Shown here: positions 34,584 to 50,258 of the stretch, piece after piece | Layout of the letters: every line of letters starts with the position of its first letter | Numbering within the stretch: position 1 is the first letter of the stretch | Assembly (NCBI GenBank): GCA_030431975.1 | Contig: JAUIHP010000015.1 | Location: forward strand, 62,001 to 126,000 | Reading direction: 5' to 3' | Origin: a bacterium | Lineage (GTDB): Bacteria > Eisenbacteria > RBG-16-71-46 > CAIMUX01 | DNA: 64,000 nucleotides | Notes under the pieces: model-generated | Told to the model about the DNA's origin: nothing | Seen by the model: only the letters and a program-made list of their open reading frames with translations | The model's database searches: none | Made by a program: the position numbers and the translations under genes

Positions 34584-34868
34584 TTAGCCGCCCGAGATGG
34601 CCTGATGGATGAGAAGCTCGTCCCCATCATTCAAAGTGTGCCCGGCGACGTCCTCCCGAAGGAGGGCGTCGCCGTTTACGACACAAAGGACATGCGGGCG
34701 AAGGTCACCGTTCTCGAGCAGAAGATGCTTTTCCAACTGCGGAATCTGATCAAAGGCCGACCGCAACGCCTCGGGGATCGTCTTGCCTCGGACCTGGATC
34801 CGGTCCGTGCCGACGGCCATCTTCAGGACCGCCGGCAGGCGTAGTTCCACCGCAGGAGCGGTCGTCAT
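34584..34868 (-). CDS. ThiS/MoaD-like ubiquitin-fold protein
   Basis: A 94-residue protein. It has the beta-grasp pattern of sulfur carriers: V-E-L-R-L-P-A-V-L, a T-I-P-E-A-L helix, H-V-L-C-V-V-N-G-D strand, L-N-D-G-D-E-L-L-I motif and a free C-terminal G-G. In MoaD and ThiS the terminal glycine is adenylated by MoeB/ThiF and receives sulfur. No E1-like enzyme or molybdopterin/thiamine gene is adjacent. The ATG overlaps the stop of the upstream propeller gene by four bases (ATGA), so the two are coupled. Confidence 0.88.
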   Translation of the reverse strand: MTTAPAVELRLPAVLKMAVGTDRIQVRGKTIPEALRSAFDQIPQLEKHLLLENGDLRPHVLCVVNGDALLREDVAGHTLNDGDELLIHQAISGG

Positions 34869-35983
34869 TCGACGACCGCCGCGGTCACGGAATAGATCGG
34901 GGGCAGGTACTCGGCCGCCGGCGACCAGGTCGTACCGTCGTCCGAGCTGGCGAAAACGGTTCCTCCGGCCGTTCCGAAGTAGATGCCGCAGGGATCCATC
35001 AGGTCCGAGTCCATAGCCTGACGGAGGACGCTGACGTGGGCGTTTTTCTGCGGAAGACCCCGGCTCAGCTTCTTCCAACCTTTGGCCGTCGACCGGTAGA
35101 CGTTGAGGGCGCCGTCCGTAGCCCGGAAGCTGTATTCCTGCGGTTCCAGGGGAAGGACGTAGCAAGCCGTTGGATCTGTCGGGTGGACGGCGAGGCCGAA
35201 ACCAAAGTCGTAAGGGAGTCCTTTGTCGATCCGAATCCAAGTCGTTCCGTAGTCTTCGGAGCGGTAGACGCCGACATGGTTCTGCTGGTAGAGGAGCCCG
35301 GGGGTGGACGGGTGGATGAGGAGTTTGTGCACGCACGTCCCGACGGTGGACTCCTTGCGTGCTCCGACGTAGTCGGCGACCGCGGTGTTGATCGGCTTCC
35401 ACTTGGCGCCGCCGTCCTCGGTCCGGAATGCCCCCGCCGCTGAGATGGCGACGTACATCCGGCTGGGGTCGTCGAGGTCGACCTGAAGGCTGTGCAGGGC
35501 CTGGCCACCGGCGCCAGGGTTCCAGTCTTTCCGGGTTCTGTGCTTGTTCATCGCCTCGACCGGTTCCCAGTTCTTTCCGTTGTCATCCGTTCGGAAAAGT
35601 CCCGCGGGCGAGGTTCCGGCAAAGAGAGTCTTTTTCTGGGACTCGTGGCCCGGAGTGATGATCCAGATCTGCTTCGGGTTGGGGAGGCCGTACTCCTTGA
35701 CGAATTTGGCGGCCTTCCGATTGAGATCGGGGTACTCCGGCGGCTTGATCGCGGCCGTGAACTTCTTGCCCGCGATGTCGGCGGTGTAGGCCGTGCTCCC
35801 GAACGAATAGTGCGTTGCCGAGGCGTGAAGCTTCGGAGTTCCGCGGGTATCTATGATGGCGTAGGGAATCGACCATCCCTTGAGATGGGGCCCGCTGACC
35901 TTCCACTTTTTTCTTTGCTTCGTCGATTCGAGCAGGAACAGCCCACGCTTCGTTCCTACGCTGAGTATCACTCGCTTGGCCAT
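34865..35983 (-). CDS. BNR-repeat (sortilin/sialidase-like) propeller protein
   Basis: A 372-residue protein with no signal peptide; the start at 35983 has GGAG five bases upstream. It contains Asp-box repeats with the S/T-x-D-x-G-x-T/K-W pattern (TDDNGKNW, TEDGGAKW, SEDYGTTW, SSDDGTTW) and ends in a short hydrophobic strand. Members are annotated as exo-alpha-sialidases, but the Arg triad and Tyr of real sialidases are not evident. It precedes and overlaps the ThiS/MoaD-like gene. From memory this pairing recurs in several phyla without an assigned function; that should be checked. Confidence 0.85.
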   Translation of the reverse strand: MAKRVILSVGTKRGLFLLESTKQRKKWKVSGPHLKGWSIPYAIIDTRGTPKLHASATHYSFGSTAYTADIAGKKFTAAIKPPEYPDLNRKAAKFVKEYGLPNPKQIWIITPGHESQKKTLFAGTSPAGLFRTDDNGKNWEPVEAMNKHRTRKDWNPGAGGQALHSLQVDLDDPSRMYVAISAAGAFRTEDGGAKWKPINTAVADYVGARKESTVGTCVHKLLIHPSTPGLLYQQNHVGVYRSEDYGTTWIRIDKGLPYDFGFGLAVHPTDPTACYVLPLEPQEYSFRATDGALNVYRSTAKGWKKLSRGLPQKNAHVSVLRQAMDSDLMDPCGIYFGTAGGTVFASSDDGTTWSPAAEYLPPIYSVTAAVVE

Positions 35984-36332
35984 TTCGTCTCCGCGTCTCC
36001 TTTCGGAATGCGCATCGTCCCCGGCGAACATGCGGATGGATGGGGTTTGAGAACTGCTGGGGAGTTTCCCGGAAGCGCTGACAAGGGTCAAGAAATGGGT
36101 CTGTCAGATCCGATCCCCAGGCAACCCTCGCCGCCCGTCTTCCGTACGACCTGAGGGGTGGCCCGCCGACCGGCCGGATCAGAATCGAAACTCTGGACTT
36201 GCGACGGAACCGTGACTCAAACTCCCTCAAAGTGCCAAACCGCCGAATTTCGTGGGACATCGGCGGTATCTCCAAGTGCCCCACTGACTCCACAACCCGT
36301 GAACGAGCCCGGTCTCGTTCCAAGGAGGGCTG
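35984..36332. other. Divergent intergenic region
   Basis: 349 bases between the propeller gene and the coiled-coil gene. It must hold the promoter of the large cluster that starts at 36333. Apart from AAGGAGG just before 36333, I see no clear promoter, hairpin or repeat. Confidence 0.5.
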
Positions 36333-37661
36333 ATGTCCGGCTCTAGTTCCGAAATCCTTCAGACCATCATGCAGGACACGGACGCGGTCGTTTCCAACCT
36401 CGAGGCGACGAAGCAGAGGGACTACGACCAGGAATTGGCCAAGATCGGGGATGAGCTCGATCAGGCCGCCGAAATGGGTAGCAAGAACGATCGCGACCTC
36501 CGGACCAAGGTATTGGAAGCCAAGCTCGACGAACTCCAGACCGACATGGCCAAGGAAGAAAGAGACCTGGCCAAGGCGGTCTTCGGCGTCAACGCAATGA
36601 TGGAGAAGCTCGGCGAAGCCTTCTCCCGGATCGGCGAATACAACGCTTCCGAGCAGAAGATCGTCGACGATGCACATCGCCGTCTCCGGGAGGCCCAGGA
36701 AGGATTCGACTCGGCCCAGAGTTCGTTCTTCATCGGGCGCGGAGGTCGGGTCAAGAAAGCCCGCGAGGAACTCGACTCGGCCGAGGCCGGGATCAAGCTG
36801 GCAGAAGCCGAGGCGCGCAGACGAGCCCGCAGCCGTCTCCTCAACGCAGACATCGAAGCGTCGCTTCAGGAAATCCAGCTTCGGGTCGCCAAGACGATCA
36901 GTATTCTCGAATCTCGCCGCACGACCCTCAACGCCCAGCTTCGGAACACGAACGCCCGCAAGAAGGCCGCTTTCGAGATGAAAGCTCGCGCCGCCCAAGC
37001 GATGGAGTCCCTCGAACAGAATCTGGCGGACGCCGAGGCCCGTCTCCGACAGACCGAGGAAGAGATGTCCGCCCTCGTCAACGGAACCCGTGAGCATGCG
37101 GCCAAGTCCAACGAGGTTTCCGATCTTCGAACCGAGGTCGAAACCATTCGAGGCAAGCGCAACTCCGCCCTGACCCTGTTCCAAAGCAAAGAGAAGTTTG
37201 CGGCAGCTCTCGAAATCGATGAAGTGGCGCTGATCAAACTGCGGGACAACACCCAGATGTGGATCATCGGCCTGCAGTCAGACACCGAAGAGCGGGTCGT
37301 GACCTTCCGCGACCGGCTGGAAGCACAGAAGGCGCTGGCCGAACATGACATTGCCAAGACCCTCGATGACGTCGGTGCTGAGGCGGATCAACGAAACGTT
37401 GAGTTCATGATTCGTTCCACGGCTGTTTCCGACCGTCTGCGAACGGAGCGGATGAAGGCGCACCCGGGACGAATGCAGGAGATCGCCCAAGCCGCGGCCA
37501 CGTTTGCCGAGCACATCGCCAAGTACCGGGAAGAGGAGGCCGAGATCATTCAATGGTTCAAGGATCGATACGGAATCGACCCGACCAAGTCCTCGTTCTT
37601 CAACTACCCGGGCCAAACGGAGGGAGCGAAGGAAGAAGAGTCGGCAGCGCCTATCGGATAG
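36333..37661 (+). CDS. Long coiled-coil cytoplasmic protein (first gene of cluster)
   Basis: A 442-residue protein without membrane segments, predicted to be nearly all helix with heptad repeats. Two long coiled-coil blocks (about residues 20-130 and 140-290) are separated by a S-S-F-F-I-G-R-G-G-R turn. A third helical region lies at about 300-400 and the end is disordered and acidic. The layout recalls TelA- or PspA/Vipp1-like proteins but no clear family signature was found. AAGGAGG precedes the ATG. It heads an operon with a downstream AAA+ ATPase, so it could be the substrate or adaptor of that enzyme (inference). Confidence 0.8.
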   Translation: MSGSSSEILQTIMQDTDAVVSNLEATKQRDYDQELAKIGDELDQAAEMGSKNDRDLRTKVLEAKLDELQTDMAKEERDLAKAVFGVNAMMEKLGEAFSRIGEYNASEQKIVDDAHRRLREAQEGFDSAQSSFFIGRGGRVKKAREELDSAEAGIKLAEAEARRRARSRLLNADIEASLQEIQLRVAKTISILESRRTTLNAQLRNTNARKKAAFEMKARAAQAMESLEQNLADAEARLRQTEEEMSALVNGTREHAAKSNEVSDLRTEVETIRGKRNSALTLFQSKEKFAAALEIDEVALIKLRDNTQMWIIGLQSDTEERVVTFRDRLEAQKALAEHDIAKTLDDVGAEADQRNVEFMIRSTAVSDRLRTERMKAHPGRMQEIAQAAATFAEHIAKYREEEAEIIQWFKDRYGIDPTKSSFFNYPGQTEGAKEEESAAPIG

Positions 37662-37778
37662 TGGGCCGTAACCGAGGAGTCGGTAGTGATTGAGCGAGGG
37701 ATTCTCGTTCTCAGCAAGGTGCGACGACGACGAGCGGCGTCCGGCGGTTACATCGGTGTCGGGTCGAAGGAGTGAGCT

Positions 37779-38933
37779 GTGAGTGATGAGTCGAGAAAGT
37801 CGCGTTTCGAGGACGATCCCAACTACGCGACTCTGGCTCACGAAGGGGACTACGACCGGTACTTCGAGCTCCTGAGGCGTGCATTCAGCGGGCTCGTTTC
37901 CTGTTTCGCCCTGGAGGGGCTGAAAGGGAGTTTCGAGTCCCAAACGACGCCGGGCTTCCTCGACAAGCTCCTCTATTCCGTGGATGCGCTTCGACTCCGT
38001 TACGCCCACAACCCGAGTCACCACCGTTCTCTCTGGGTCGACCTGACCCAGTCCGGCTTCCCCAACGCCACCGAGATCAGCCAGCTCGAAGTGGCGATGC
38101 TGGCTCAGCAGGATCAGCTCCGGAAGTTCCGGCCTTTCACCCTGGTCCGGGCCGAGCTTCTCGACCACCTGATGAAGAAGCACGAGGATTCAGAAGAGCT
38201 GCTTTGGGAGCTATCCCAACGTTGCTTTGCCGAGATGCTCCATCCGTTCCGCCTCTTTCTGCCGTTCACCCCCGGGACTCTTGTTCGTGGCGAGGACAAG
38301 GAGAGCGTCCGCTCCTACGTCTACTCCTGGGGCTGCTACGACTTCAAACACAACCGCCCCTACGTCCACATCATGGAGTTCGAGCAGGACAAGGACGAGC
38401 CGCCTCTGGACGAACAGGGCGAGCACTACGACCGTTTTCTGGAAGTTGTTCGAAGCGAGGGGTCCCGGGTTCCCAAGATCAACATCCTGGCCATGGCAAT
38501 TGACGATGCGATCGAGGCCATCCGACCGATGTCGATCAAGCGGACCTGCGTCGGCCCGCTCTACTCGAGAATGCTGCTCGAGACCGAGGACGTCTCCGCA
38601 TTCGATCCGCACGCGCCTGTCTTTCACGAACTCCTGGGGAGTTACGGCCGCGATCCCCTCGATTTCGTCCTACAGTTTCACGATGAGGTCGTGTTCTCGA
38701 AGCGCCAACAATTGACGCGAAGCGTCTTCGCTCCACAAGGACGTCTGCGTCAGGTTTTCTTCGTCCCTGAAGCAGACTCCGAAGCCTACGAGAAGGGTGC
38801 CTCGGTCATTCACCGATACGTTCTTCTGCCGCACTTCCTTTTGCAGCACGTCCCGGAAGTCGAAGCCATTCCGGACTGGAAGAACTGGACAAAGCTGACC
38901 TACAACGATCGCGGAGTCGTCAATGGAATCTAG
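37779..38933 (+). CDS. Cytoplasmic protein of unknown function, cluster gene 2
   Basis: A 384-residue soluble protein. The GTG has AAGGAG upstream. It has no signal peptide or membrane segment. Segments that look conserved: F-E-x-L-x-R-R-A-F near residue 30, V-D-A-L-R-L-R-Y, a Trp/Tyr-rich stretch (Y-V-Y-S-W-G-C-Y-D-F-K-H), I-N-I-L-A-M-A-I-D-D-A-I, and L-P-H-F-L-L-Q-H near the end. No nucleotide-binding motif. Its last 11 bases overlap the start of the AAA+ gene, so it is translationally coupled and probably in the same complex. I do not recognise a family. Confidence 0.75.
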   Translation: MSDESRKSRFEDDPNYATLAHEGDYDRYFELLRRAFSGLVSCFALEGLKGSFESQTTPGFLDKLLYSVDALRLRYAHNPSHHRSLWVDLTQSGFPNATEISQLEVAMLAQQDQLRKFRPFTLVRAELLDHLMKKHEDSEELLWELSQRCFAEMLHPFRLFLPFTPGTLVRGEDKESVRSYVYSWGCYDFKHNRPYVHIMEFEQDKDEPPLDEQGEHYDRFLEVVRSEGSRVPKINILAMAIDDAIEAIRPMSIKRTCVGPLYSRMLLETEDVSAFDPHAPVFHELLGSYGRDPLDFVLQFHDEVVFSKRQQLTRSVFAPQGRLRQVFFVPEADSEAYEKGASVIHRYVLLPHFLLQHVPEVEAIPDWKNWTKLTYNDRGVVNGI

Positions 38934-40875
38934 CGCCTCGAGCCTGCCCATTCGGGAATCTCACCTGGTGGAGTTTCGGGAGCGGGCCACGGCTATGATT
39001 CGCGCCGTGTCCGGCAAACCGAGGGCGACTCCGTCGCCGTCTTCCGGTGGAGACTCCCTGCCATTTCAATGGGCTCAGTCGCTAACGACTCCCGAGACAC
39101 AAAACGAAAAGACATCGCTCCTGGAGGCGGCTCAACGGGTAAGCGGCGACAAGACTCTGCTTTCGGATGAGACCCACCATGTCCTCAGCGCGGTTCGCCG
39201 AGGTCTTCAGATCGCGATGTACATCCAGTCGCAGTACACAAGGTTCTCCGGTCTCGATACCCTGATGGCGCAGAACAGCAAAGGCGTTCTTGTCGACCGG
39301 CAGAAGGCGGAGTTTCGAGACAAACACGTGACTGCCTCCGCGATTACGTTGTTCGTGACGGCCTATTACGTCGTCCATGAATTGACGCGGTTCCAGTCCG
39401 AGGAAACGAGTGCGTCCAAGGTGGAACTCGAGGCTCTGCCTGATCTGACGCTGCAGTCGCCGGTAACCGCCCTCAACTCGGTTTTATTCCAACTGGCCGG
39501 TCATCTTCTCGAACCGGGCTCGGTACGGACCAACGCAGACTTCGTCAAGCTGACCCTCCGCTTCTTTGAAGCGGTTCTGGCCGAGATCCAACGACGCCGG
39601 GAATCTCTGGCCTACACCGAACCCTTCACGTCCAACACCTATCGGCTCGAGGGAAGTGAGTTCTTCCTCGACGGTTTTGCGGCAGACATTTCAGACGCAT
39701 CCGTCAGCGTCGAGTTCAACCGAGTCGATCTCGCCCAGATCGTCGGCAACCGTGATGCAAAACACAAGGCGCGTCGGCTGGCTTCGCGGCTCATTTGTTA
39801 CGACCCGAAGACACAGCGCAACCCGTTCGAAGAGTTGGGTGGACTGGCCACCGTTCGTATGGGCTACGGAAAGCCCGGGACGGGAAAGAGTCTCCAGATT
39901 GCCGCCACAGCCACTCTGCTTCATGACTGGTGTGCCGAGTTGGGGATCCCGTTTCTCTTCTGGCCGATGCCCGACACGGTGGTCTCCACGTTTCAGGGCG
40001 GGTCGGCAGAGCGAATGATGAACTGGATGCGTCCGCTCAAGGATCCGACCCGCATCGTCTATGCGCCAATCGATGACGCTGAGAACAACCTGGAGGAAAG
40101 AACTCGACAGGGTGTGTCGGCGGGCGTCCGCGAGGTTATCGCCGTCTTCCTTCGCAACACCGAGGGAGCTTACGCGGTCAACCACGGCAACGCCGTCATC
40201 GAACTCTTCACGAATCTCCCCGAACAGATCGACAAGGCCGTTCTCTCCCGCATCATCGACCGTTTCGCCGTGGATGGCGCCCGTACCTGGCAGGACTTTC
40301 TCGATCAGGATCGGATGTGGTGGCAGGACTTTGGGGACGTCGACCGGGGATTCGTCGACATGCAGGACCCCAAGGACTACCAGTATCTGACCGACCAGCA
40401 GGAGATCGGCAGCCTGGCCCGCGTTTACGAGGGACGTGTCGAACCCCGGGAGGAGCGTGTCCGGGAAGTCTTCGGGAAGGTTCGTGCCTCGCACGAGCCC
40501 AATGAACACAAGTTTTTCGCGGTGTTCTTTCAGGAGCTTCAAAAGGAGCTGCCCTACTTCAGTTCGCGCGACGTGCGCAACATTCAGCGGCTGATCAACG
40601 AACGGATCATGGACTTCGACCTTCCCGACGCCTGGTTCGAGAACCCGACGCACTTCTTCGGAAAACCGTACGACGAGAAGAAGAACGCGCTCGTGGACCT
40701 GATGCGCCAGAACATGAAGGGTCTGTCCTTTGCCGAGATCCGATTGCAGGAGACGGTTCGGTACTGCGACGAGTTCGTCCGAATCGCGGAGCTGGATCGC
40801 GAACGTAGGCTGGAGCAACTCGTCGAGCAGATGCAGATGCAGGCCAAAGCCCAAGCACGGTTGCGGGGGAACTGA
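38923..40875 (+). CDS. AAA+ ATPase, cluster gene 3
   Basis: A 650-residue protein. Residues 1-300 are helical and unassigned. The AAA+ core starts near 300: Walker A GKPGTGKS at about 315-322, Walker B-like I-V-Y-A-P-I-D-D-A-E at about 378-387, sensor-1 Asn in L-F-T-N-L-P-E-Q (about 427-432), and S-R-I-I-D-R-F as probable arginine fingers (about 441-447). The Walker B is unusual: Pro precedes the first acid, and the catalytic Glu is replaced by Asp. A large tail (450-650) ends in a helix rich in Arg/Glu and a Q-M-Q-M-Q-A-K coil. No protease or nuclease domain. It may remodel a membrane or coiled-coil partner, e.g. its operon neighbours. Confidence 0.88.
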   Translation: MESSASSLPIRESHLVEFRERATAMIRAVSGKPRATPSPSSGGDSLPFQWAQSLTTPETQNEKTSLLEAAQRVSGDKTLLSDETHHVLSAVRRGLQIAMYIQSQYTRFSGLDTLMAQNSKGVLVDRQKAEFRDKHVTASAITLFVTAYYVVHELTRFQSEETSASKVELEALPDLTLQSPVTALNSVLFQLAGHLLEPGSVRTNADFVKLTLRFFEAVLAEIQRRRESLAYTEPFTSNTYRLEGSEFFLDGFAADISDASVSVEFNRVDLAQIVGNRDAKHKARRLASRLICYDPKTQRNPFEELGGLATVRMGYGKPGTGKSLQIAATATLLHDWCAELGIPFLFWPMPDTVVSTFQGGSAERMMNWMRPLKDPTRIVYAPIDDAENNLEERTRQGVSAGVREVIAVFLRNTEGAYAVNHGNAVIELFTNLPEQIDKAVLSRIIDRFAVDGARTWQDFLDQDRMWWQDFGDVDRGFVDMQDPKDYQYLTDQQEIGSLARVYEGRVEPREERVREVFGKVRASHEPNEHKFFAVFFQELQKELPYFSSRDVRNIQRLINERIMDFDLPDAWFENPTHFFGKPYDEKKNALVDLMRQNMKGLSFAEIRLQETVRYCDEFVRIAELDRERRLEQLVEQMQMQAKAQARLRGN

Positions 40876-42155
40876 TGGAGCGTCTGGAGCGACTTCAGCT
40901 CTTCGGAGCGGGGCTCATTCGGGTCGACACGCCGGAACTGGTCCGTCGCTACAACGCCTGCCTCGAACAGATCGATCTCGAGCCCACGTCTCTGGAGTCC
41001 TTTCAGATCGACGGCATCGGCTGGAGTCCCGAGATTGCCGAGGAAAAGGACAACCCGAGGTATCTGGCCCATCGAGGCGGCAACCTCTTCGCCATCATTC
41101 TGACCCCCGATCAACGGGACAAACCGATCTACGTTCCCATGGCGTCCTATCTTTGGCGGCTGATGGAACGTTACTTCGCGATGAACATTCGCGCGATCAC
41201 CGACGTTACGACCCAGGCCGGGCTCTGCCTCGATATCGATGACGGCATCTCGAAGTTCCGGTCCCCGGATGACCTGTTGGTCGTGCGTCGGGTCGTGGTT
41301 CGTTCGACCGCCGGGGGGATGCTCAAGACCGCGCTCGAGCAGCAGCGTCTGGTGCACCGGTTCCTTGAAGAGCCGATGGCGTGGATGGATTCCGGGCTTC
41401 GAAATGACATCGCCGAGAGTGCCCGGAAACACGGGGATCTGCGGGATCGCCAGCTGACGATCCCGGAAATGGACTTTGACGATCTGGAGTCGTTCTACTC
41501 GACGGCGGTCGGCGGTGTCTTCGTCCTGCGTCGCGGAGAGGCCAAGGTCCTGATTCTCGAGTCAGAGGTCTGCGCGGGGCCGCCAGAGGGGGAGAACGTG
41601 ATTTCTCCTGGGGCGACACGAACGGTATGCCTGCCGATGGCTGAGCCATCGACCTTGGAGTTCCTCGAGAAGGCCAGGTTTCTGGAACTCGATTTCGAGT
41701 GGTACCGGCAGAACTTCTGGATCCTCCGCGACTGGGTCGAGCAACTGGGTGTCGATGCTTTGGCCGAAAGCCATCCGGACATTGATTTCGCAGAACTGTC
41801 CTATGTGGCTCGTCGTCGTCGGCTCGTCGAGCTGGATTCCGAGATGCCTCCGGCCATTGGTGAGCTGGAAATGATTCGTGAGACGCTTAGCAACGGGCAA
41901 ACTCCGGCCGTGGCCTATCTCACGCCGGCGGTTCGGCAGCTTCTGCTTCGTCCCTCGCAACGGATGCCCAAGTCCCACCGCGAAGCTCTGTGGATCTATC
42001 TGGCGAAAACTCGACCTCTTCTTCTGACCGACCTCTACCGGTCGGACAAGAACCGATTCTTCGAACTCTTTGCGGAATGGCCCGAGTCCAAAAAGAACTG
42101 GGCCGCCAACTTCCTTCGGGAGCGCCAAGGAACAAAGGGAGGCGTGGGCTCATGA
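40875..42155 (+). CDS. Cytoplasmic protein of unknown function, cluster gene 4
   Basis: A 426-residue protein whose ATG overlaps the AAA+ stop by one base. No signal or membrane segment. Mixed alpha/beta, with L-F-G-A-G-L-I-R-V-D-T-P-E near residue 9-20, a central helix with R-L-V-H-R-F-L-E-E-P-M-A-W-M-D-S-G, and a Trp-rich stretch (F-E-W-Y-R-Q-N-F-W-I-L-R-D-W) at about 275-290. The C-terminal 90 residues are helical (W-I-Y-L-A-K-T-R-P-L-L-L-T-D-L-Y, W-P-E-S-K-K-N-W). I do not recognise a family. It lies between the ATPase and two membrane proteins, which suggests a bridging role. Confidence 0.75.
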   Translation: MERLERLQLFGAGLIRVDTPELVRRYNACLEQIDLEPTSLESFQIDGIGWSPEIAEEKDNPRYLAHRGGNLFAIILTPDQRDKPIYVPMASYLWRLMERYFAMNIRAITDVTTQAGLCLDIDDGISKFRSPDDLLVVRRVVVRSTAGGMLKTALEQQRLVHRFLEEPMAWMDSGLRNDIAESARKHGDLRDRQLTIPEMDFDDLESFYSTAVGGVFVLRRGEAKVLILESEVCAGPPEGENVISPGATRTVCLPMAEPSTLEFLEKARFLELDFEWYRQNFWILRDWVEQLGVDALAESHPDIDFAELSYVARRRRLVELDSEMPPAIGELEMIRETLSNGQTPAVAYLTPAVRQLLLRPSQRMPKSHREALWIYLAKTRPLLLTDLYRSDKNRFFELFAEWPESKKNWAANFLRERQGTKGGVGS

Positions 42156-42895
42156 TCCCGACCTCGCAAGAAGTGCTGGCCGCGTGTCTGTTGTTCTTCA
42201 TCGTAGGAACGATGGTCTACATCCTCGACCGATCGATGAAGGGGGTCTATCGGTGGTGGTATGACATGACTCACCGCGATCCTCTCGCAGAGGACCGGGG
42301 ATTCATCTTCAATCGACGGACCCGGACGAAGTTCACGGTCGCCACCATCATCACGACGATACAAACCGGTCTGGCCATTTGGCTGACGGAAACGAATCTG
42401 CTGACCGAACTGATCCTCTGGCCGCTTTCCATTCCGATACTCGTGCTCGGCTTCTATGTCGGACCGTTCATCTTCCGGATCTGGGATCGGCGAGCGCCGG
42501 TCATGGACAAGCTGGATGAACTGGAGCGCGGTGACACGAGCATCGGACACGAGATTCGCGAGCTGACCACGGTGGCTGCGGAACGAAGCCGAAGTGCCTT
42601 CCGGCGGGGTTCCGACGGAAGAGACACTGCAGGTAACCAAGACTCCGAAGGATCCGGCGATGCCACAGACCTTGGAAGTGGAAAGCCTGCCGACCCCTAT
42701 GCCGTCATCTTCGAATCGGTTCCGGAAGACGACCCAGGTTCGGGTTCTCGACTCGCCGAGTCCGGCGACCATCCGGGAGATGCGGGAGCAGATCCCGACG
42801 ATGCCGATCCTCTATCCAAGGAAGATCCTAGAGACATGATCCGCCAGTTCACCAAACCCCGTGGACGCAGCGCTGGAGATGGAGAGAGGTCATGA
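42152..42895 (+). CDS. Membrane protein with three helices, cluster gene 5
   Basis: A 247-residue protein whose ATG overlaps the previous stop (ATGA). Membrane helices at about residues 8-27, 63-84 and 88-112, then a cytoplasmic or periplasmic tail of 130 residues that is Asp/Gly/Ser-rich and probably disordered. A basic W-W-Y-D-M-T-H-R loop sits between helices one and two. No enzyme motif. It overlaps the next gene by four bases, so the pair is tightly coupled; it could anchor the complex in the inner membrane. Confidence 0.78.
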   Translation: MIPTSQEVLAACLLFFIVGTMVYILDRSMKGVYRWWYDMTHRDPLAEDRGFIFNRRTRTKFTVATIITTIQTGLAIWLTETNLLTELILWPLSIPILVLGFYVGPFIFRIWDRRAPVMDKLDELERGDTSIGHEIRELTTVAAERSRSAFRRGSDGRDTAGNQDSEGSGDATDLGSGKPADPYAVIFESVPEDDPGSGSRLAESGDHPGDAGADPDDADPLSKEDPRDMIRQFTKPRGRSAGDGERS

Positions 42896-44736
42896 ACGAT
42901 CCGAGCGGCTCAGGAAATCCCGGTGATGGTCCCAAAGCCGGTCCCGACACCAGGCACGACTTGGTCCTGGGCTCGGATATCGAGGAGTTGGCCGCAAGCG
43001 GGGGGGCCGGATCGGGGGGAACAAGCCGATCTGGGGAAACAAGCCCCAACGACGCGTCGGGCCATGACGGGGCCGCCCGAAGCGGAGCGGGCGGTGCGGG
43101 AACTTCCCGCGAGAGTGCCTCCGGGGAAGAGAAACGTAGCCGCTGGTACTGGTTTCGCCACCACGCCGGCGTACGGTTTCGCGCCTTTCTCGGTCGTCAC
43201 AAGCTGGCTGTGTTCCTTCTCAGCACCGCGGCGCTCGTTCTGCTCTTCCTCTCCCGGTCGCTTTGGCAGCCCGGGGTTCTCCTCCTTCGCATCTATCTCG
43301 TTTGGTGGGTACTGACTCTCCTCGGCCTGTTCGTCGCTCGGTGGGGTCTGCGCAGAAGATCGCTCAAGCTCACGTTGACGGGACTCGTCTTTGCGCTGCT
43401 GGTCGCCGCCTTCCGTATATCTCCGGTCTACGACTACGTATCGCTGTTCATCCGTTACCAAACGTTTCCCCAGGTCGACCTCCGCGAACTTCCCGTTTCC
43501 GGAAACGAGCGCATTCAGCCGCTGAACTCGATCTTCTCGCTGGCGCACGAAAAGATGGTCGAGACCGAAGCGCCCTGCCGGCCGGACTTCGTCCGTGTTC
43601 GCGATGAGCTGGGGAATGAAAGCTACCGATGGACCATGGCCATCGAGCCTGCGTACCTGACGCGACGCATTCTCGAACCCGTGCGTCAGGTCTACAGTGT
43701 TTCGGCGACGTCGCCGGCGCCCGACTTTTCCAAAGACAACCGTAAGGAAGTGAGCTTCGACGTCGGGGAGAACCTGAAGCTGGGGCGGCAAACGCATACG
43801 GCCGTCCTTCGTTCGTTCGGGCCCTGGCGCTTCCTCAACTACGAACCGGAAGAAGTCACCTACGTCACGGATGACAAGGGCGATTGGGTTCAGGTCGTCA
43901 CGCTGGTCAAGTGGACCGGACTCTTCTTTCCACGGCCGGAGTTCGGCGGGGTGCAGCTCATCCGACAGAACAAGGGTGGACTGGATGCGGCGTTTGAGAG
44001 AGGTTGGCGAGGACGAGGCGAGTGGATTCCACCGGCCGAGATTGCGAAGCATCCTTTCCTTCACGGGCAGAATCTCAACTCGCAGGAGGTGGCGCGAACG
44101 GTCGCGCGCAGCTTCCGGTACCAGGCAGGGTTCCTGGCGCCCATGCCCGGGCGCCACAAAGGCGACATCCGCATTCCGGATCTGCCGGACGACGTCAACA
44201 ATCAGCCCTTCACGACCTACTTCGGCGCTTCCGGAAAGATGCCGGCGGGGCTCTACCACTACTTTGCCCTCGAGCCGTTCGACCCGTCCAAGCAGGGGCT
44301 GAACACCAGCCTCTTTCTGCCCGCGGACGGCACTCGCCGGGTCTACGTCTACCGACATCATGAACTTTCCGGGTCTCTGACCGGAGTCTCTGCGGTCGGA
44401 GCCAAGGTCCGGGAGTCGAAGAAGAACTACGACTGGACGACGAACCGGCCGGTCGAGCATCGACCCTTCATTCGGACGATCGCGGGGGAGCGGCGGTTCT
44501 TCTGGCTGACGACCGTGGTGACCTACAAGGAGGATGTCCCCGGGGCGGGCGTCGACTCTCCCGCGGACGAGGGGGCGCCCGAGGGGCGGAGTACCCGCTT
44601 CATCGCCGGCAGCTTTCCCGAGGTCGTCATCACCGATGCGGCCCAAAATGTCCCGGTCTGGGTCGATGCGGCCAATCCCGCGGGTTGGGAGAGGGAACTC
44701 GAGGTTGCTTTGAGTCAGGTTTGGTCGGATCGTTGA
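42892..44736 (+). CDS. Membrane protein with large extracytoplasmic domain, cluster gene 6
   Basis: A 614-residue protein. Residues 1-85 are Gly/Ser-rich and disordered, followed by a basic W-Y-W-F-R-H-H-A-G-V-R-F-R segment. Three membrane helices lie at about 104-122, 126-150 and 160-180. Residues about 185-614 form one large domain that should face outside: Y-x-S-L-F-I-R-Y-Q, a strand-rich region with G-P-W-R-F-L-N-Y-E-P, R-x-E-F-G-G-V-Q-L-I-R-Q and a late Y-V-Y-R-H-H-E-L motif, ending in a V-V-I-T-D-A-A-Q-N-V-P-V-W-V-D-A strand. I do not recognise a family. The ATG overlaps the previous stop by four bases. Confidence 0.8.
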   Translation: MNDPSGSGNPGDGPKAGPDTRHDLVLGSDIEELAASGGAGSGGTSRSGETSPNDASGHDGAARSGAGGAGTSRESASGEEKRSRWYWFRHHAGVRFRAFLGRHKLAVFLLSTAALVLLFLSRSLWQPGVLLLRIYLVWWVLTLLGLFVARWGLRRRSLKLTLTGLVFALLVAAFRISPVYDYVSLFIRYQTFPQVDLRELPVSGNERIQPLNSIFSLAHEKMVETEAPCRPDFVRVRDELGNESYRWTMAIEPAYLTRRILEPVRQVYSVSATSPAPDFSKDNRKEVSFDVGENLKLGRQTHTAVLRSFGPWRFLNYEPEEVTYVTDDKGDWVQVVTLVKWTGLFFPRPEFGGVQLIRQNKGGLDAAFERGWRGRGEWIPPAEIAKHPFLHGQNLNSQEVARTVARSFRYQAGFLAPMPGRHKGDIRIPDLPDDVNNQPFTTYFGASGKMPAGLYHYFALEPFDPSKQGLNTSLFLPADGTRRVYVYRHHELSGSLTGVSAVGAKVRESKKNYDWTTNRPVEHRPFIRTIAGERRFFWLTTVVTYKEDVPGAGVDSPADEGAPEGRSTRFIAGSFPEVVITDAAQNVPVWVDAANPAGWERELEVALSQVWSDR

Positions 44737-44805
44737 AACCGATTCGGTCGGGTCGCGTTCAAAGAATCACGGTTTGAGTTTCCCCATCCGCGTGCGGAGT
44801 GCCTC

Positions 44806-47514
44806 TTGTCCAGGTGGGTCTTCTTCATCCTTGGCGTTGCCCTCGCCGTCCCTTCCAGTCTTGCTGTGAACTGGGCCCTCGACCTGCGTCGTGAATCCAA
44901 GGCACTGAGCCTGGAGGAAGACGTTGGTTCTTCCCGAGAGTCCTTTGTCGCCCTCACCGATGCCAGTCCACGGCCTCCGCTTCCGCTGCGGCTGGTCGAC
45001 ACCGGTTCCGTCGGCATTCACGCGGATCCGGACTCCTGGCGGGAACACGATTACTCCCACGCTTCCCTGGCTTTCCGGGATTTGGAGACGGACGACGGGT
45101 TTCAACGAACCGAGGCGGAGTGGCGGGACTATGTCGATACCATGGTCGCCTACGGCAACAACGGCGTCGTCGTAGGGACCTTCCTCGATCTGGTCGACTT
45201 CGACCGGGTCGGCGCCGGCGACGAGATCTACGCCGCAGACTCGGAGATTCGTCGCCGCCACCACGTGCGCCGGGAAAGCTTCGGCCGGCTCTTTGACTAT
45301 GCCCGCACGGCCGGCATGCGGGTCTACGTCAAGACCGACATGTTGGCCATGACTCCCGAACTCGCGGACTACCTCGGCGGGATCGACGGCGGGTTCAAGG
45401 CATCCAATCCGAAGGTTTGGGACGTTTTTCGGTTGGGGTTGGAAGAGCTCTTCGACCGCATGGAACTCGATGGACTGCTCATTCGCATTGGGGAGGCCGG
45501 GTCACTCTACCGGGACCCATTGTCCCATGACTCGAGCGCCATGTTCGTTCGGGACGCAGCCGGCCTTCAGTCGATGTTGCAAGGCATCCTGCCTGCGTTC
45601 GACGGAACCGAGATGGACCTCATTCTTCGTTCCTGGTCCGTAGGGGTCGGAGAGCTGGGCGAACTGCACACGGATCCCGAGGTCTACGAACGTGCGCTGG
45701 GTTCCATCCGTTCTCCCAACCTCATCGTTTCGACGAAGTATGTGGCCGGCGACTACTTCAGCTTCTTCGAGACCAATCCCACTTTGTTCCAAGGCCCGCA
45801 CCGCCGTTTGGTCGAGTTCCAGTCACGGCGGGAGTACGAGGGTTTCGGAGCCATTCCCAACTTCCTCGGCTCCGTTCACCAAAGAGCGCTGCTCGAGATC
45901 ACGGACCGGAATCCCAACGTCGTCGGTATCTACAATTGGACCCAGGCCGGTGGTCCGCAACGCGCCGGCCCGATGTCGCTCTACCTTCGTCACGGGTTTT
46001 GGACGTGGATCGATGCCAACGTCTACGCTACGTCCCGCCTCGGCTTACAGCCCAATGTCTCCATGGACGAGGTCATCGTCGACTGGCTCGAGCTGCGATT
46101 CGGTGACGAGCCGGAAACCCATCCCGCGCTCGAGCGGATCCTTTCGGAGTCGCGCCAGGTCATCGAGGACGGACTCTACCTGAGGCCCTTTGCGGAGCAG
46201 AGCCGTTGGATTGCCGGCATCGAGCTTCCACCGCTGATGTGGATTCAGGAGTGGGACATGCTCAACGGTTGGGCCGCGATTTCGAGCATCGTCTACGAAG
46301 CCTGCAAACCTCATCTTCGGGAAACGATCGCAGACGGGTATGCGGCGGAGCGTCGAGTCGAGGAGTGGCTTCACGAGCTTGAGTCGGCTCGAACGAGCGT
46401 TTCGCGGGCGCATTCTTCAGTCGAGCCGGATCAGGGACGACAACAGCCGGCAACCGACGATGTTCTCGCCTCGCTGCGGTATCACGTGGATCTGCTGGGT
46501 CTGTGGGCTGCCCATCGCGAATCGTTCCTGCTCTACTACGACTGGATGGAGAACGGATCTCCCGAGTCCCGGAGGTCGTGGAACGTCGCGCGTGAAAGGT
46601 TCGCAGGGACCGCCGCGGAACATCGCGCTTCCTACGGAGACAACCTCGATTTTCCTGCCTACGAACTCGCGCCGGCCAGCCGCGCGATGACGGCGGCGGG
46701 ACGCGGCGACGACGCCATGTGGCTGGCTCGGTTCGTTCTCCTCAGCATCGTCCTGGCGTTGGCACTCGGCACCGCGCCTTTGCAACGCCGAACCGGATGG
46801 TATGCCGGCAAGAAGATGATGCGGTACCTCTGGATCGGTGCGATGCGGCCCTGGAGAAGCCGAGGGTTGCGGCGGGACCCTTCGCCCCCGTACTTCGGTC
46901 TCACGAGCACGGTCCTCTGCGTGTGTGCGCTGACCTTGGTGTCGCTCACTTCGGTCAGCAGTTGGACGCTCTCTCTGGGTGTGGCCATCGTCGTCCTGGT
47001 TTTCATCGTCGGACTGAAGACGGGTTTGACCGGTCCACGAATCGATGCCAAAGACCGCTTTCTTCCTATGGCCGCCGTGCCCTTGCTCATCGTGTGTCTG
47101 CCCGTACTCGGCGCACTGGCGTGGCGGGGACCGTTGGGGTTCTGGCACGGATTCTGGACGAGCGAAACGTTTCGGTTGCTCTGGGTCGGTGCGCTTTCCT
47201 TGGCGGGTGTCTGGGCCCTCTACGCGCTCTGGGTCGTCATGCCGCACGGACGAAAGGTGCCCGTGCGTGTGCTGTCGGCTGGACTCTGTCTGGCCTTCGG
47301 AAGCGTTCTGACCTTGCTCTGGTTCGTTCCCGATATCTCCTATCTACTCCGTCTCCTGGACCAGCCGCTGCTTGTCGTTCCGATGTCCGCGTCCATCCTG
47401 ACCGGAATCACCGAGTACGGTGGGGTCGGCAACGAGGTCCTCTACTACGCGCGTGGTCTCGGGTTGGCTTTGGCCGCAGTCGGTGCGTACCTCGGGACCG
47501 GCCATCGTGTCTGA
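44806..47514 (+). CDS. TIM-barrel glycosidase-like ectoprotein with polytopic membrane anchor, cluster gene 7
   Basis: A 902-residue protein. The TTG start at 44806 has GGAG six bases upstream and gives an N-terminal signal anchor (W-V-F-F-I-L-G-V-A-L-A-V). Residues about 60-480 read as a beta/alpha barrel: V-V-G-T-F-L-D-L, M-R-V-Y-V-K-T-D, L-L-I-R-I-G-E230 (a candidate catalytic acid), L-I-V-S-T-K-Y-V, V-E-F-Q-S-R-R-E-Y-E-G-F-G-A, I-Y-N-W-T-Q-A-G-G-P at 375. These resemble the GH67 alpha-glucuronidase barrel (R-I-G-E and F-Q-x-R-x-E-Y-E-G motifs), a likeness made from memory. Residues about 635-900 hold seven or eight membrane helices. It probably acts on envelope glycan outside the membrane. 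Confidence 0.8.
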   Translation: MSRWVFFILGVALAVPSSLAVNWALDLRRESKALSLEEDVGSSRESFVALTDASPRPPLPLRLVDTGSVGIHADPDSWREHDYSHASLAFRDLETDDGFQRTEAEWRDYVDTMVAYGNNGVVVGTFLDLVDFDRVGAGDEIYAADSEIRRRHHVRRESFGRLFDYARTAGMRVYVKTDMLAMTPELADYLGGIDGGFKASNPKVWDVFRLGLEELFDRMELDGLLIRIGEAGSLYRDPLSHDSSAMFVRDAAGLQSMLQGILPAFDGTEMDLILRSWSVGVGELGELHTDPEVYERALGSIRSPNLIVSTKYVAGDYFSFFETNPTLFQGPHRRLVEFQSRREYEGFGAIPNFLGSVHQRALLEITDRNPNVVGIYNWTQAGGPQRAGPMSLYLRHGFWTWIDANVYATSRLGLQPNVSMDEVIVDWLELRFGDEPETHPALERILSESRQVIEDGLYLRPFAEQSRWIAGIELPPLMWIQEWDMLNGWAAISSIVYEACKPHLRETIADGYAAERRVEEWLHELESARTSVSRAHSSVEPDQGRQQPATDDVLASLRYHVDLLGLWAAHRESFLLYYDWMENGSPESRRSWNVARERFAGTAAEHRASYGDNLDFPAYELAPASRAMTAAGRGDDAMWLARFVLLSIVLALALGTAPLQRRTGWYAGKKMMRYLWIGAMRPWRSRGLRRDPSPPYFGLTSTVLCVCALTLVSLTSVSSWTLSLGVAIVVLVFIVGLKTGLTGPRIDAKDRFLPMAAVPLLIVCLPVLGALAWRGPLGFWHGFWTSETFRLLWVGALSLAGVWALYALWVVMPHGRKVPVRVLSAGLCLAFGSVLTLLWFVPDISYLLRLLDQPLLVVPMSASILTGITEYGGVGNEVLYYARGLGLALAAVGAYLGTGHRV

Positions 47515-47526
47515 CGGGAACGTGGC

Positions 47527-48570
47527 GTGACCTCCCAGGCCCGAATCCTCCGGAATCACGCGCTGGTCGCGCGTCGTTGGTTCGGGATCCGCCAGAATGT
47601 GGCGGGCGTGTTCTGGCTGGCGTTTGTGCTCGGCTTCGTCCTCTTCGGTCGGACCTTCGATCTGTCGGCCACCGCTTGGGCTCGTCCCTTGATTTGGCTG
47701 CTGCTCCCGGTTGGGCTCGTCCAGGCCTACGTACGGGTGACTCGCGAAGAGTCTGCTTTTCTCGAAGGGATCCTCGAGCCGGGCCGGGGCAGGAGACTTC
47801 ACTTCCAGCGTGCGTTCGCCCTGGGCGCTGTGGCTGTGATACTGCCCGCGCTTTGGGGAGTCGCATGGCCCCGGCTTGGAGCACTCGGGACCGCGGCGCT
47901 TCATCTTCTGGTCGTTTTTGGCGCTTCGGCCACTCTTGTCTTCCGCGATCGACTTGCGTTCACCCGCGCCTTCAGCGGAATGAGAGCCCGGGCGCTGAGG
48001 AGTGGGGCCGCACGGAAGGGTGAACGCCCGACTCTGACTTCCACTCGGCGGATGCCTTGGCTTTTCGCTCGCATGCTCCGGTCTCTCCGCAGGGAGCGGC
48101 TCGGTGCCTTCGTTGGGTACGCCGGCGGGCTCCTTCTGGTGCTGCTGCTGGGTATCGGGCTCGGACGTCAGGGCAGTTCGTCAGATGTCGCCGGATACAC
48201 TCTGCTCTGCAGTCATGGATTGCTGCTCCTGGCTGCGGCTGGCTTTGCAGTCGAGGAGGACGCACGGTTGCTGGAATTCGATCCGCAGCTTTTCGGTCGC
48301 CTCTGGCGATCGACGTTCGCTCTGTGGTCGGCGGTCCTCGTCGTTCAGGCTCTCACGGCTGTTGTGCTTCTTGGGTTGAGCGGATGCGAGGTGCCCCCGT
48401 GGAGTTCCGTCTTGGGCTTGGCGGGGGCGCTTATGGTTCTGGCCTATGTCGTTCTCGTCCGGCTTTCCTTTCCCGAAAGCGAACTCTTGCGCACGGTGTT
48501 GCTTCTTCTGGTCGTTCTTCCCGTGCTGTTGCCTGTGGCTGTTTGGATCTGTCTGCGGAGGGTGCGATGA
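47527..48570 (+). CDS. ABC transporter permease-like membrane protein, cluster gene 8
   Basis: A 347-residue polytopic protein with about eight to ten membrane helices and a basic linker at 160-190. GTG start, 12 bases after the previous stop. It overlaps the ATPase gene by four bases, the usual sign of an ABC permease, and has the R-R-W-F-G-I-R-Q-N amphipathic start that precedes the first helix in ABC-2-type proteins. Membership in ABC-2 is inferred from context as the sequence itself is poorly conserved. The cargo is unknown. Confidence 0.72.
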   Translation: MTSQARILRNHALVARRWFGIRQNVAGVFWLAFVLGFVLFGRTFDLSATAWARPLIWLLLPVGLVQAYVRVTREESAFLEGILEPGRGRRLHFQRAFALGAVAVILPALWGVAWPRLGALGTAALHLLVVFGASATLVFRDRLAFTRAFSGMRARALRSGAARKGERPTLTSTRRMPWLFARMLRSLRRERLGAFVGYAGGLLLVLLLGIGLGRQGSSSDVAGYTLLCSHGLLLLAAAGFAVEEDARLLEFDPQLFGRLWRSTFALWSAVLVVQALTAVVLLGLSGCEVPPWSSVLGLAGALMVLAYVVLVRLSFPESELLRTVLLLLVVLPVLLPVAVWICLRRVR

Positions 48571-49304
48571 TCTCGCTTCGAAACGTGACCGTGGCCTACG
48601 GCGACCATGTCGTCTACGACCGTCTGAGCCTGGAGATCCCGGACGGCCGAATCACGGGTGTGCTCGGATCGAACGGAGCCGGGAAGACGACCTTGATGAA
48701 GGCATTGGTCGACCGTCTTCCGGCTTCGGGAGACATTACGATTGCCGGTCTGAAGCATACACAGTTCAGACGACGCCACCGACGCGACCTGTTCTATCTG
48801 CCGGAACAGGGATTTACCTACGACTATCTACGGGCGCGGGAGTTCGTTCGCTTCGTGCTCGACCTTTACGAAGCACCGGATCGTGAAGGGCGTGCTTGGA
48901 GACTTCTCGAAGCTTTCTCCCTCGACCCGGATGGCGACCAGCTCGTTCGTGAGTTTTCGCAAGGGATGAAGAGAAAGCTCTTTCTCACGCCGTTCCTCGC
49001 GATGGAACCCAAGGTGCTTCTTCTGGATGAAGCGATGAACGGAATCGACGCGGTCGGACTCGCCGTCCTGAAGAAAGTACTGCAGGGGCTGGCCGCCGGC
49101 GGATCCGCGGTGGTTCTCTCCAGCCACGTCCCGGACTTCATCGAGAAGGCCGCGGACGAAGTTCTCATCCTGCGCCGAGGGCAGGTCGGCTTTCACGGGG
49201 CGGTGTCGACGTTGGATCGTCCGTTGGAACAGCACTACCTGGATGTCCTCGGACTGGATGTCGAGGCACAGGTCGCGGAGTTCCTGAGTCCGGGGTCACT
49301 CTGA
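48567..49304 (+). CDS. ABC transporter ATP-binding protein, cluster gene 9
   Basis: A 245-residue nucleotide-binding domain. Walker A GSNGAGKTT at 34-42, Q-loop L-P-E-Q-G near 84, signature S-Q-G-M-K-R-K at about 131-137 in place of LSGGQ, Walker B VLLLDEA at about 150-156, and H-loop L-S-S-H at about 188. The FSQGMKRK variant is usual in ABC-2 export ATPases. The ATG overlaps the permease stop. With gene 8 it forms an exporter, probably for a product of gene 7 or for a subunit of the cluster. Confidence 0.92.
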   Translation: MISLRNVTVAYGDHVVYDRLSLEIPDGRITGVLGSNGAGKTTLMKALVDRLPASGDITIAGLKHTQFRRRHRRDLFYLPEQGFTYDYLRAREFVRFVLDLYEAPDREGRAWRLLEAFSLDPDGDQLVREFSQGMKRKLFLTPFLAMEPKVLLLDEAMNGIDAVGLAVLKKVLQGLAAGGSAVVLSSHVPDFIEKAADEVLILRRGQVGFHGAVSTLDRPLEQHYLDVLGLDVEAQVAEFLSPGSL

Positions 49305-49544: not shown

Positions 49545-50207
49545 TTACTTCCCGATGACCCAGGTTGTCATACAACGGGCGTTGGCCACCACCGTCGTTT
49601 TCAGTGGATCCAAGAACTGCCCGCCGAGGTCGGTTGTGACTCGCAAGAGTGTCTCCTCGTCGACGAGAAAGCGTTCACTGCCGTCGGGGAGCTCGAACCA
49701 GCCGTTTCCCAAGGGTCGCAACCGATCCGGATCCATGCCGATCGTTGAGGCGAGTCTCGCGAAGAGCATGCCGCCGGGACGGAGTGCTTTCCAGCATCCC
49801 TCGACCATCCGCAGGAAGTGACTTTCATCTCGGGCGAAATGCAGAACGGCGTTACAGATGACGACCTCCGCCCAAGCGTCCGGTAGTGAAGTCTCTTCGA
49901 TGGGCTCGTCAAGGAAGTGGACCGTACTCAGGACATCTCGGTCGAAGATGTCCATCCATCGTTCCCGGAGAGCGGCTACAGCCTCGCCGTCAGCGTCGAG
50001 AGCAGCGACCGGGTGCCCGCTCCGGACGAAATACTCCAGGTTTCGTCCGCCTCCGCATCCCGCATCGAGGATTCGAGCTCCCGTTGGGATTCGCCCCCGC
50101 AGTACCTGATCGAGAAGGTAGATGTCCATGGACCCGACGAGAGCCGCAAGGCGGGCCGGATCCGCTGACATACCGGGAGGCTCACCCATCTCGGTCGATG
50201 ACCGCAT
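49545..50207 (-). CDS. Class I SAM-dependent methyltransferase
   Basis: A 220-residue protein with a Rossmann methyltransferase fold: motif I I-L-D-A-G-C-G-G-G-R-N (about 45-55), acid A-L-D-A-D-G at the end of strand two, motif IV V-V-I-C-N-A-V-L-H-F, and L-R-P-G-G before strand six. This is the Methyltransf_11/25 class that methylates small molecules or cofactors. Start at 50207, in the right copy of a 32-bp duplication (50195-50258); the ATG overlaps the stop of a 10-residue mini-ORF. The alternative ATG lies 12 codons downstream. Substrate unknown. Confidence 0.82.
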   Translation of the reverse strand: MRSSTEMGEPPGMSADPARLAALVGSMDIYLLDQVLRGRIPTGARILDAGCGGGRNLEYFVRSGHPVAALDADGEAVAALRERWMDIFDRDVLSTVHFLDEPIEETSLPDAWAEVVICNAVLHFARDESHFLRMVEGCWKALRPGGMLFARLASTIGMDPDRLRPLGNGWFELPDGSERFLVDEETLLRVTTDLGGQFLDPLKTTVVANARCMTTWVIGK

Positions 50208-50258
50208 TAGTCGATGACGACACTAGTCGATGACCGCATTAGTCGAGGACGACGATGG
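50195..50258. repeat. 32-bp tandem duplication across the beta-helix/methyltransferase junction
   Basis: Bases 50195-50226 and 50227-50258 match at 28 of 32 positions. On the minus strand each copy carries TAATG, i.e. the stop of one frame overlapping the ATG of the next. The outer stop ends the beta-helix gene (50239); the inner ATG (50207) starts the methyltransferase. Between them is a frame MRSSTSVVID whose TAA overlaps that ATG. Its first five residues equal the methyltransferase start and its last four resemble the end of the beta-helix protein. Confidence 0.95.

Follow-up and report, generated by a model that had tools for sequence, protein, structure and literature searches.

A survey of the partners of the phage shock protein system describes operons in which PspA is combined with AAA+ ATPases (PMC11237479). 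RavA-ViaA, a pair of a MoxR AAA+ protein and a vWA protein, is reported to act on fumarate reductase and to work at the inner membrane (PMC9489729, PMC10585395). A third system for comparison is ESCRT-III/Vps4 (ESCRT, endosomal sorting complex required for transport; Cdv in archaea). Here we analysed a locus of nine genes (g1 to g9, positions 36333-49304) in a stretch of 64,000 nucleotides from a bacterium of the phylum Eisenbacteria (GenBank assembly GCA_030431975.1, contig JAUIHP010000015.1, positions 62,001 to 126,000 of the forward strand); this whole stretch is called the window. The first six genes (g1-g6, 36333-44736) are a conserved, strictly ordered unit that occurs in three phyla. 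They possibly encode one AAA+ machine that is docked on the inner membrane and remodels a coiled-coil assembly, a reading that we hold tentatively and at somewhat below even confidence. Judged from the comparisons made, this machine would be comparable in principle to PspA or to ESCRT-III with Vps4 but built of different proteins, and by the tests run it appears related to neither.

Comparison with Described Systems

With PspA systems the locus shares a soluble coiled-coil protein (g1), membrane partners (g5 and g6) and an AAA+ ATPase (g3), the latter being present in some PspA operons (PMC11237479). It differs from them in that g1 lacks PF04012 and that no PspB/C, Toastrack or Band-7 match was found in g1-g6. 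The likeness to ESCRT-III/Vps4 lies in a classical AAA+ gene beside a coiled-coil gene, in C-terminal tag-like motifs and in the membrane context. However, g3 has neither an MIT nor a Vps4 C-terminal domain (a Pfam scan at E up to 1 gave PF00004 plus one weak unrelated match only), and the other five proteins gave no ESCRT family match. A profile search with ten g1 homologs, restricted to sequence, detected no Snf7 or PF04012 match, and the lack of a PF05816 match for g1 sets the locus apart from TelA/Ter. RavA-ViaA resembles it as a bacterial AAA+ protein with a dedicated soluble partner that reportedly acts at the inner membrane (PMC9489729), but has two genes instead of six; g3 is a classical AAA protein, and Pfam and NCBIfam scans revealed no MoxR or vWA domain in g1-g6. 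By profile tests the six genes appear to belong to none of ESCRT, PspA, TelA/Ter, RavA-ViaA or the PADLOC systems.

Two families without a described function, to our knowledge, are connected to the locus: g4 belongs to DUF6638 (PF20343), and DUF2333 (PF10095) stands near the core genes in Sinorhizobium, Shinella and Moraniibacteriota. Most of the six proteins fall into no family of known function. An earlier note, made from the letters of the window alone, knew of no described system with this gene set. The same holds for the open-access literature (subscription journals were outside the search), in which we found neither a description of the set nor a mention of DUF6638/PF20343.

The Conserved Unit Comprises g1 to g6

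A scan of contigs from species-representative genomes with a g3 profile built from five sequences yielded at least 553 g3 relatives. This makes g3 a common bacterial component without a described function. Of these, 80 loci were kept for analysis, nearly all from Flavobacteriaceae. Clustering of their open reading frames (ORFs) found g3 at all 80 loci, g2 and g4 at 76 each, g5 at 74, g1 at 73 (in the corresponding place) and g6 at 71. The next commonest family was a neighbouring ABC-F gene (45 of 80); another flanking gene was shared by 39 of the 80 loci. Since exactly six families are near saturation, the conserved unit is bounded at g1-g6. The order g1-g2-g3-g4-g6 is kept at 71 of the 80 loci, where g4 and g6 are separated by a gene of the g5 type, and a genome of the phylum Patescibacteria (G707) carries all six genes in identical order, again with g5 between g4 and g6.

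The earlier note had treated all nine genes as one unit, with g7-g9 as its glycan-processing or export part, and had proposed to ask whether their order recurs in distant phyla. Recurrence was found for g1-g6, which do co-occur elsewhere, in Flavobacteriaceae and in G707; g7-g9 do not accompany them there. A single pathway, in which g7-g9 process or export a glycan for the g1-g6 machine, would suit the layout of the locus. The nine same-strand ORFs of the note were confirmed; they lie on the + strand between a divergent upstream gene (Sortilin/BNR-repeat beta-propeller-like, 34865-36091, minus) and a convergent downstream methyltransferase gene (49545-50207, minus), and the gaps at g6/g7 and g7/g8 measure 69 and 12 bases. 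The recomputed junctions include a gap of 117 bases at g1/g2 and five overlaps instead of the six counted before: 11 bases at g2/g3, 1 at g3/g4, and 4 each at g4/g5, g5/g6 and g8/g9. Against the single pathway, g7 and g8 were not found at the 80 related loci, g9 was matched there by unrelated ABC genes only, and g7-g9 were not seen with g1-g6 in any other lineage examined (Flavobacteriaceae, G707, Vibrio, rhizobia). In addition, g7 has no relative in the remaining 46 genomes of the phylum, and its proposed assignment as a glycosidase is weak, with a PF07477 match of 23.4 bits that stays below the cut-off of 27 and no match among PDB sequences. We consider one pathway of nine genes very improbable; g7-g9, separated by the 69-base gap, are not part of the g1-g6 system.

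A NUDIX-like hydrolase gene, assigned by eye and without a profile, is located between g3 and g4 at about 31 of the 80 loci (e.g., L017:4996-5586). It was rejected as a seventh part, since most Flavobacteriaceae loci and the other lineages are without such a gene. Many junctions of the six genes in Flavobacteriaceae carry varied small ORFs (e.g., L023, L028, L052, L065), as if they were a common insertion site. By eye, these ORFs look four-helix-bundle-like, GIY-YIG-like or lipoprotein-like.

g3 Has the Features of a Classical AAA+ Motor

The g3 gene (38923-40875, +) encodes a protein of 650 aa that matches PF00004 with an E-value of 8.3e-8 and 33.2 bits (cut-off 21.2). The AAA domain covers approximately residues 310-452, and only over this stretch profile matches to Cdc48, proteasome Rpt (Rpt4), Vps4 and katanin were obtained; the N-terminal 270 aa matched no family. 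Across 87 g3 sequences no variation was seen at G316, P318-K322 (PGTGK), Q358-G359, I383-D385, N431, R443 and R447, and position 357 is occupied by F or Y throughout. Based on the position in relation to Vps4-like proteins and on known motifs, residues 357-359 represent the putative pore loop. Walker B usually ends in Asp-Glu, but that of g3 ends in Asp-Asp (D384-D385). The PF00004 score, Walker A and B, sensor 1 and the Arg fingers place g3 among the classical AAA+ proteins. As judged from these residues, it keeps the parts of a working motor of this class, namely Walker A, Walker B, an aromatic-Gln-Gly pore loop and two Arg fingers.

Soluble Partners of g3

The g1 gene (36333-37661, +) encodes a soluble protein of 442 aa with a long coiled coil, which is a candidate for the assembly or the substrate of the motor. 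It is free of proline up to residue 377, and heptad-like windows make up 27% compared to 5% in shuffled sequences. The C-terminal five positions of 74 g1 proteins from Flavobacteriaceae read D (93%), D (100%), L (97%), L (100%) and S (74%), the final residue being S or G in almost every protein, and the linker preceding this DDLLS/G tag reaches only 22-57% per column. Docking and recognition tags typically take this form, a strongly conserved terminal motif that follows a free linker.

The soluble g2 protein (37779-38933, +, 384 aa) matched no family in profile scans and was present as a partner in all cluster versions examined. The third soluble partner, g4 (40875-42155, +, 426 aa), matches PF20343 (DUF6638) with an E-value of 2e-36 and 126.2 bits (cut-off 27). 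Its AlphaFold2 model is confident, with a mean predicted local distance difference test (pLDDT) score of 85.9 and a predicted template modelling (pTM) score of 0.81. The model gave no match in PDB or BFVD at E <0.5 and none in VIA-align at Z >=5, although a missing fold-search match for g4 or g6 is not evidence of a new fold. Comparison of g1, g2, g4 and g6 to PDB sequences gave nothing convincing.

The Membrane Module g5-g6

The g5 gene (42152-42895, +, starting with ATG at 42152) encodes a small membrane protein with several passes, whose long charged tail is presumably cytosolic and ends in a conserved tag. The tails of 71 g5 proteins from Flavobacteriaceae end with KSAR[ED]RLKDKG, each column being conserved to 87-100% except for the E/D position, and the acidic linker in front of it to 17-51% per column. 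A related motif, R-x-x-[TL]-[KD]-x-[RK]-G, closes the tail of g5 in the window and in G707.

The g6 protein (42892-44736, +, 614 aa) has three N-terminal membrane helices (residues 105-176), followed by a domain of about 430 aa. A basic loop precedes helix 1 and another joins helices 2 and 3, and the loop that links helices 1 and 2 is neutral; according to the positive-inside rule this places the C-terminal domain outside. The structure model (mean pLDDT 64.9, pTM 0.64) has a mixed alpha/beta outer part, and its best VIA-align match was YpeB (Z 6.3 over 65 residues, root-mean-square deviation 2.9), which for this moderate model is within the range of chance.

A three-helix anchor bearing a large, conserved outer domain and a tag-like g5 tail would also be expected of a sensor for envelope stress or nutrients. 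In such a device g6 would sense, g5 would relay, and the complex of AAA+ and coiled-coil proteins would be the output, with the motor as a switch and not as an unfolding machine. Pfam and NCBIfam scans found no signalling domain in the six proteins, however, and no regulator gene adjoins the cluster. In g3 the pore loop and the Arg fingers are retained in the way known from translocating motors, which also argues against a function in signalling, so that we regard this explanation as improbable.

Distribution and Apparent Exchange of the Membrane Module

In the window's phylum g3 or g4 was detected in 1 of 47 genomes, the window's own, and this lone presence suggests horizontal gain. The system is present in 48 of 149 Flavobacteriaceae, in 5 of 395 sampled Bacteroidota and in 2 of 287 sampled Patescibacteria, namely G707 and a Moraniibacteriota genome described below. 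The G707 proteins are the nearest relatives of those of the window, tied with Flavobacteriaceae in the case of g3, with identities of 42, 42, 47, 39, 29 and 48% for g1 to g6; g6 of the window is 36-40% identical to the Flavobacteriaceae copies.

When plasmids were searched by tblastn with g3, distant relatives (28-30% identity) were detected in Vibrio, Sinorhizobium, Shinella and Rhizobium, and on megaplasmids of rhizobia relatives of g4 adjoin those of g3. The annotated records of Vibrio and Sinorhizobium list two hypothetical proteins and an ATP-binding protein, followed by a DUF6638 or hypothetical protein. The Vibrio genes were assigned to g1-g4 by blastp against the window. For R. leguminosarum and Shinella, g3 and g4 were found by tblastn, and g1 and g2 were assigned by place and alignment. 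On the pSymB plasmid of Sinorhizobium meliloti Ak57, g3 and g4 are separated by two genes, one for a protein with an endonuclease domain and one for an ISRm16 transposase (L004:11941-13686).

The soluble core g1-g4 occurs without g5 and g6 in Vibrio, on the rhizobial megaplasmids and in one Moraniibacteriota genome, and no g6 match was obtained on plasmids. In the Moraniibacteriota genome g1-g4 are accompanied by two small membrane genes, with a DUF2333 gene nearby (PF10095, 7.6e-10). In Sinorhizobium and Shinella DUF2333 directly follows g4 (6e-16 and 1e-16), and in Vibrio and R. leguminosarum neither g5/g6 nor DUF2333 is adjacent to the core. The membrane module therefore appears to be exchangeable, with g5 and g6, DUF2333 or none of them adjacent. 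DUF2333 as a homolog of g6 is unsupported (hhalign probability 1%, from a shallow profile against a single sequence). A search for DUF2333 in the window's own genome gave no match and carries little weight, since the controls were silent too. The g3 tree and the g4 tree each set Pseudomonadota apart from all other copies (100/100 support), and this agreement of the deep split fits the view that the four core genes travel together. In the Moraniibacteriota locus g1 is directly preceded by a probable gene for a mechanosensitive channel of the MscS type (L107:10767-11867), whose PF00924 match (5e-4) is barely above the cut-off.

Client handling would also be a fitting task for a soluble motor that has dedicated partners and whose membrane module can be exchanged. 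In a membrane-linked chaperone or assembly factor, g3 together with g2 and g4 would mature or remove a specific membrane enzyme or complex, and g1 would be a scaffold and not a polymer that is disassembled. RavA-ViaA, a bacterial AAA+ pair that reportedly works at the inner membrane (PMC9489729, PMC10585395), is a precedent. The chaperone explanation is weakened by the match of g3 to the classical AAA clade (Cdc48, Rpt, Vps4) rather than to MoxR, and by the lack of a conserved client gene adjoining the cluster. We consider it unlikely, yet it is the strongest of the alternatives.

The patchy occurrence and the location on megaplasmids raise a further possibility, namely a horizontally spreading and so far uncharacterised system for defence against phages or for conflict between bacteria. 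PADLOC-DB 2.0.0, however, returned generic AAA/ABC matches and marginal short ones only, and no nuclease or toxin domain is present in the system. The ABC-F gene and the second flanking gene, shared by many Flavobacteriaceae loci, point to vertical keeping within this clade. All this renders a role in conflict quite improbable. A phage origin was rejected, as neither phage records nor viral contigs contained relatives of the system.

A Candidate Membrane-Docked Remodelling Machine

In the machine that we tentatively prefer, g3 would form a hexameric ring with g2 and g4 as adaptors. The motor would grip the C-terminal tag of g1 and extract subunits from a coiled-coil assembly at the membrane, or reshape it. 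The tail of g5 would bring the machine to the membrane, and the outer domain of g6 may sense or act on the envelope side. The soluble core g1-g4 would be the engine, to which different membrane modules could be attached. Envelope maintenance or stress handling would be the likely purpose. Several statements of the earlier note agree with this division of the proteins. The AAA+ domain of g3, the coiled coil of g1, the membrane location of g5 and g6 and the ABC ATPase g9 had all been recognised correctly. The proposed soluble motor with its partners (g1-g4) gained support from their joint occurrence without g5 and g6 in Vibrio and rhizobia and from the agreement of the g3 and g4 trees. The proposed membrane anchor with a large outer domain (g5-g6) is in accordance with the membrane helices, the g6 model and the loop charges.

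The relation to PspA was considered in Flavobacteriaceae. Among the 149 genomes 14 have a true PspA and 48 have the system, and no genome has both (4.5 expected). A hypergeometric calculation gave a naive p of 0.003, which is not corrected for phylogeny and overstates the effect, since both traits follow clades. In six carrier genomes neither a PspA above the family cut-off nor TelA (PF05816) was detected. PspA and the g1-g6 system may thus do related work. A Vps4-like motor, a coiled-coil assembly other than PspA and an exchangeable membrane module could then constitute a bacterial machine for membrane remodelling or repair that replaces PspA in its carrier lineages, as an independently evolved counterpart of ESCRT. 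We regard this extended proposal as doubtful, at a confidence well below that for the remodelling machine as such.

Several points weigh against these interpretations. The link between the tags, g3 and g1 is one that we infer, and the g1 polymer is a candidate assembly only. The DDLLS tag of g1 is missing from the copies of the window and of G707. Alignment of g1 to PspA of Flavobacteriaceae by hhalign gave a probability of 0.1%, and the mutual exclusion with PspA was observed in one family without phylogenetic correction. The outer domain of g6 is not interpretable from a moderate model (pLDDT 65), and the genomic neighbours of g1-g6 provide no hint of a pathway.

If the system indeed remodels membrane-bound coiled-coil assemblies, bacteria would possess a device that resembles ESCRT but consists of unrelated parts, and a candidate substitute for PspA would be at hand in those Flavobacteriaceae that lack it. 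The operon is compact and is carried by culturable marine Flavobacteriaceae.

Genes outside the Conserved Unit

The g7 gene (44806-47514, +) encodes a protein with a signal or anchor helix, the weak match to a GH67 C-terminal-like domain and about six C-terminal membrane helices. It is followed by g8 (47527-48570, +), encoding a multi-pass membrane protein that is the probable ABC permease partner of g9. The product of g9 (48567-49304, +, starting with ATG at 48567) is the ATPase of an ABC transporter (PF00005, 2.7e-22).

A scan for promoters and terminators gave no more matches than in shuffled sequences. The GC content of the nine genes is 0.59-0.64, compared to 0.61 for the window. Beyond the methyltransferase gene the window encodes a right-handed beta-helix protein with a C-terminal FlgD-Ig domain (50239-51897, minus), which is probably a secreted surface protein.

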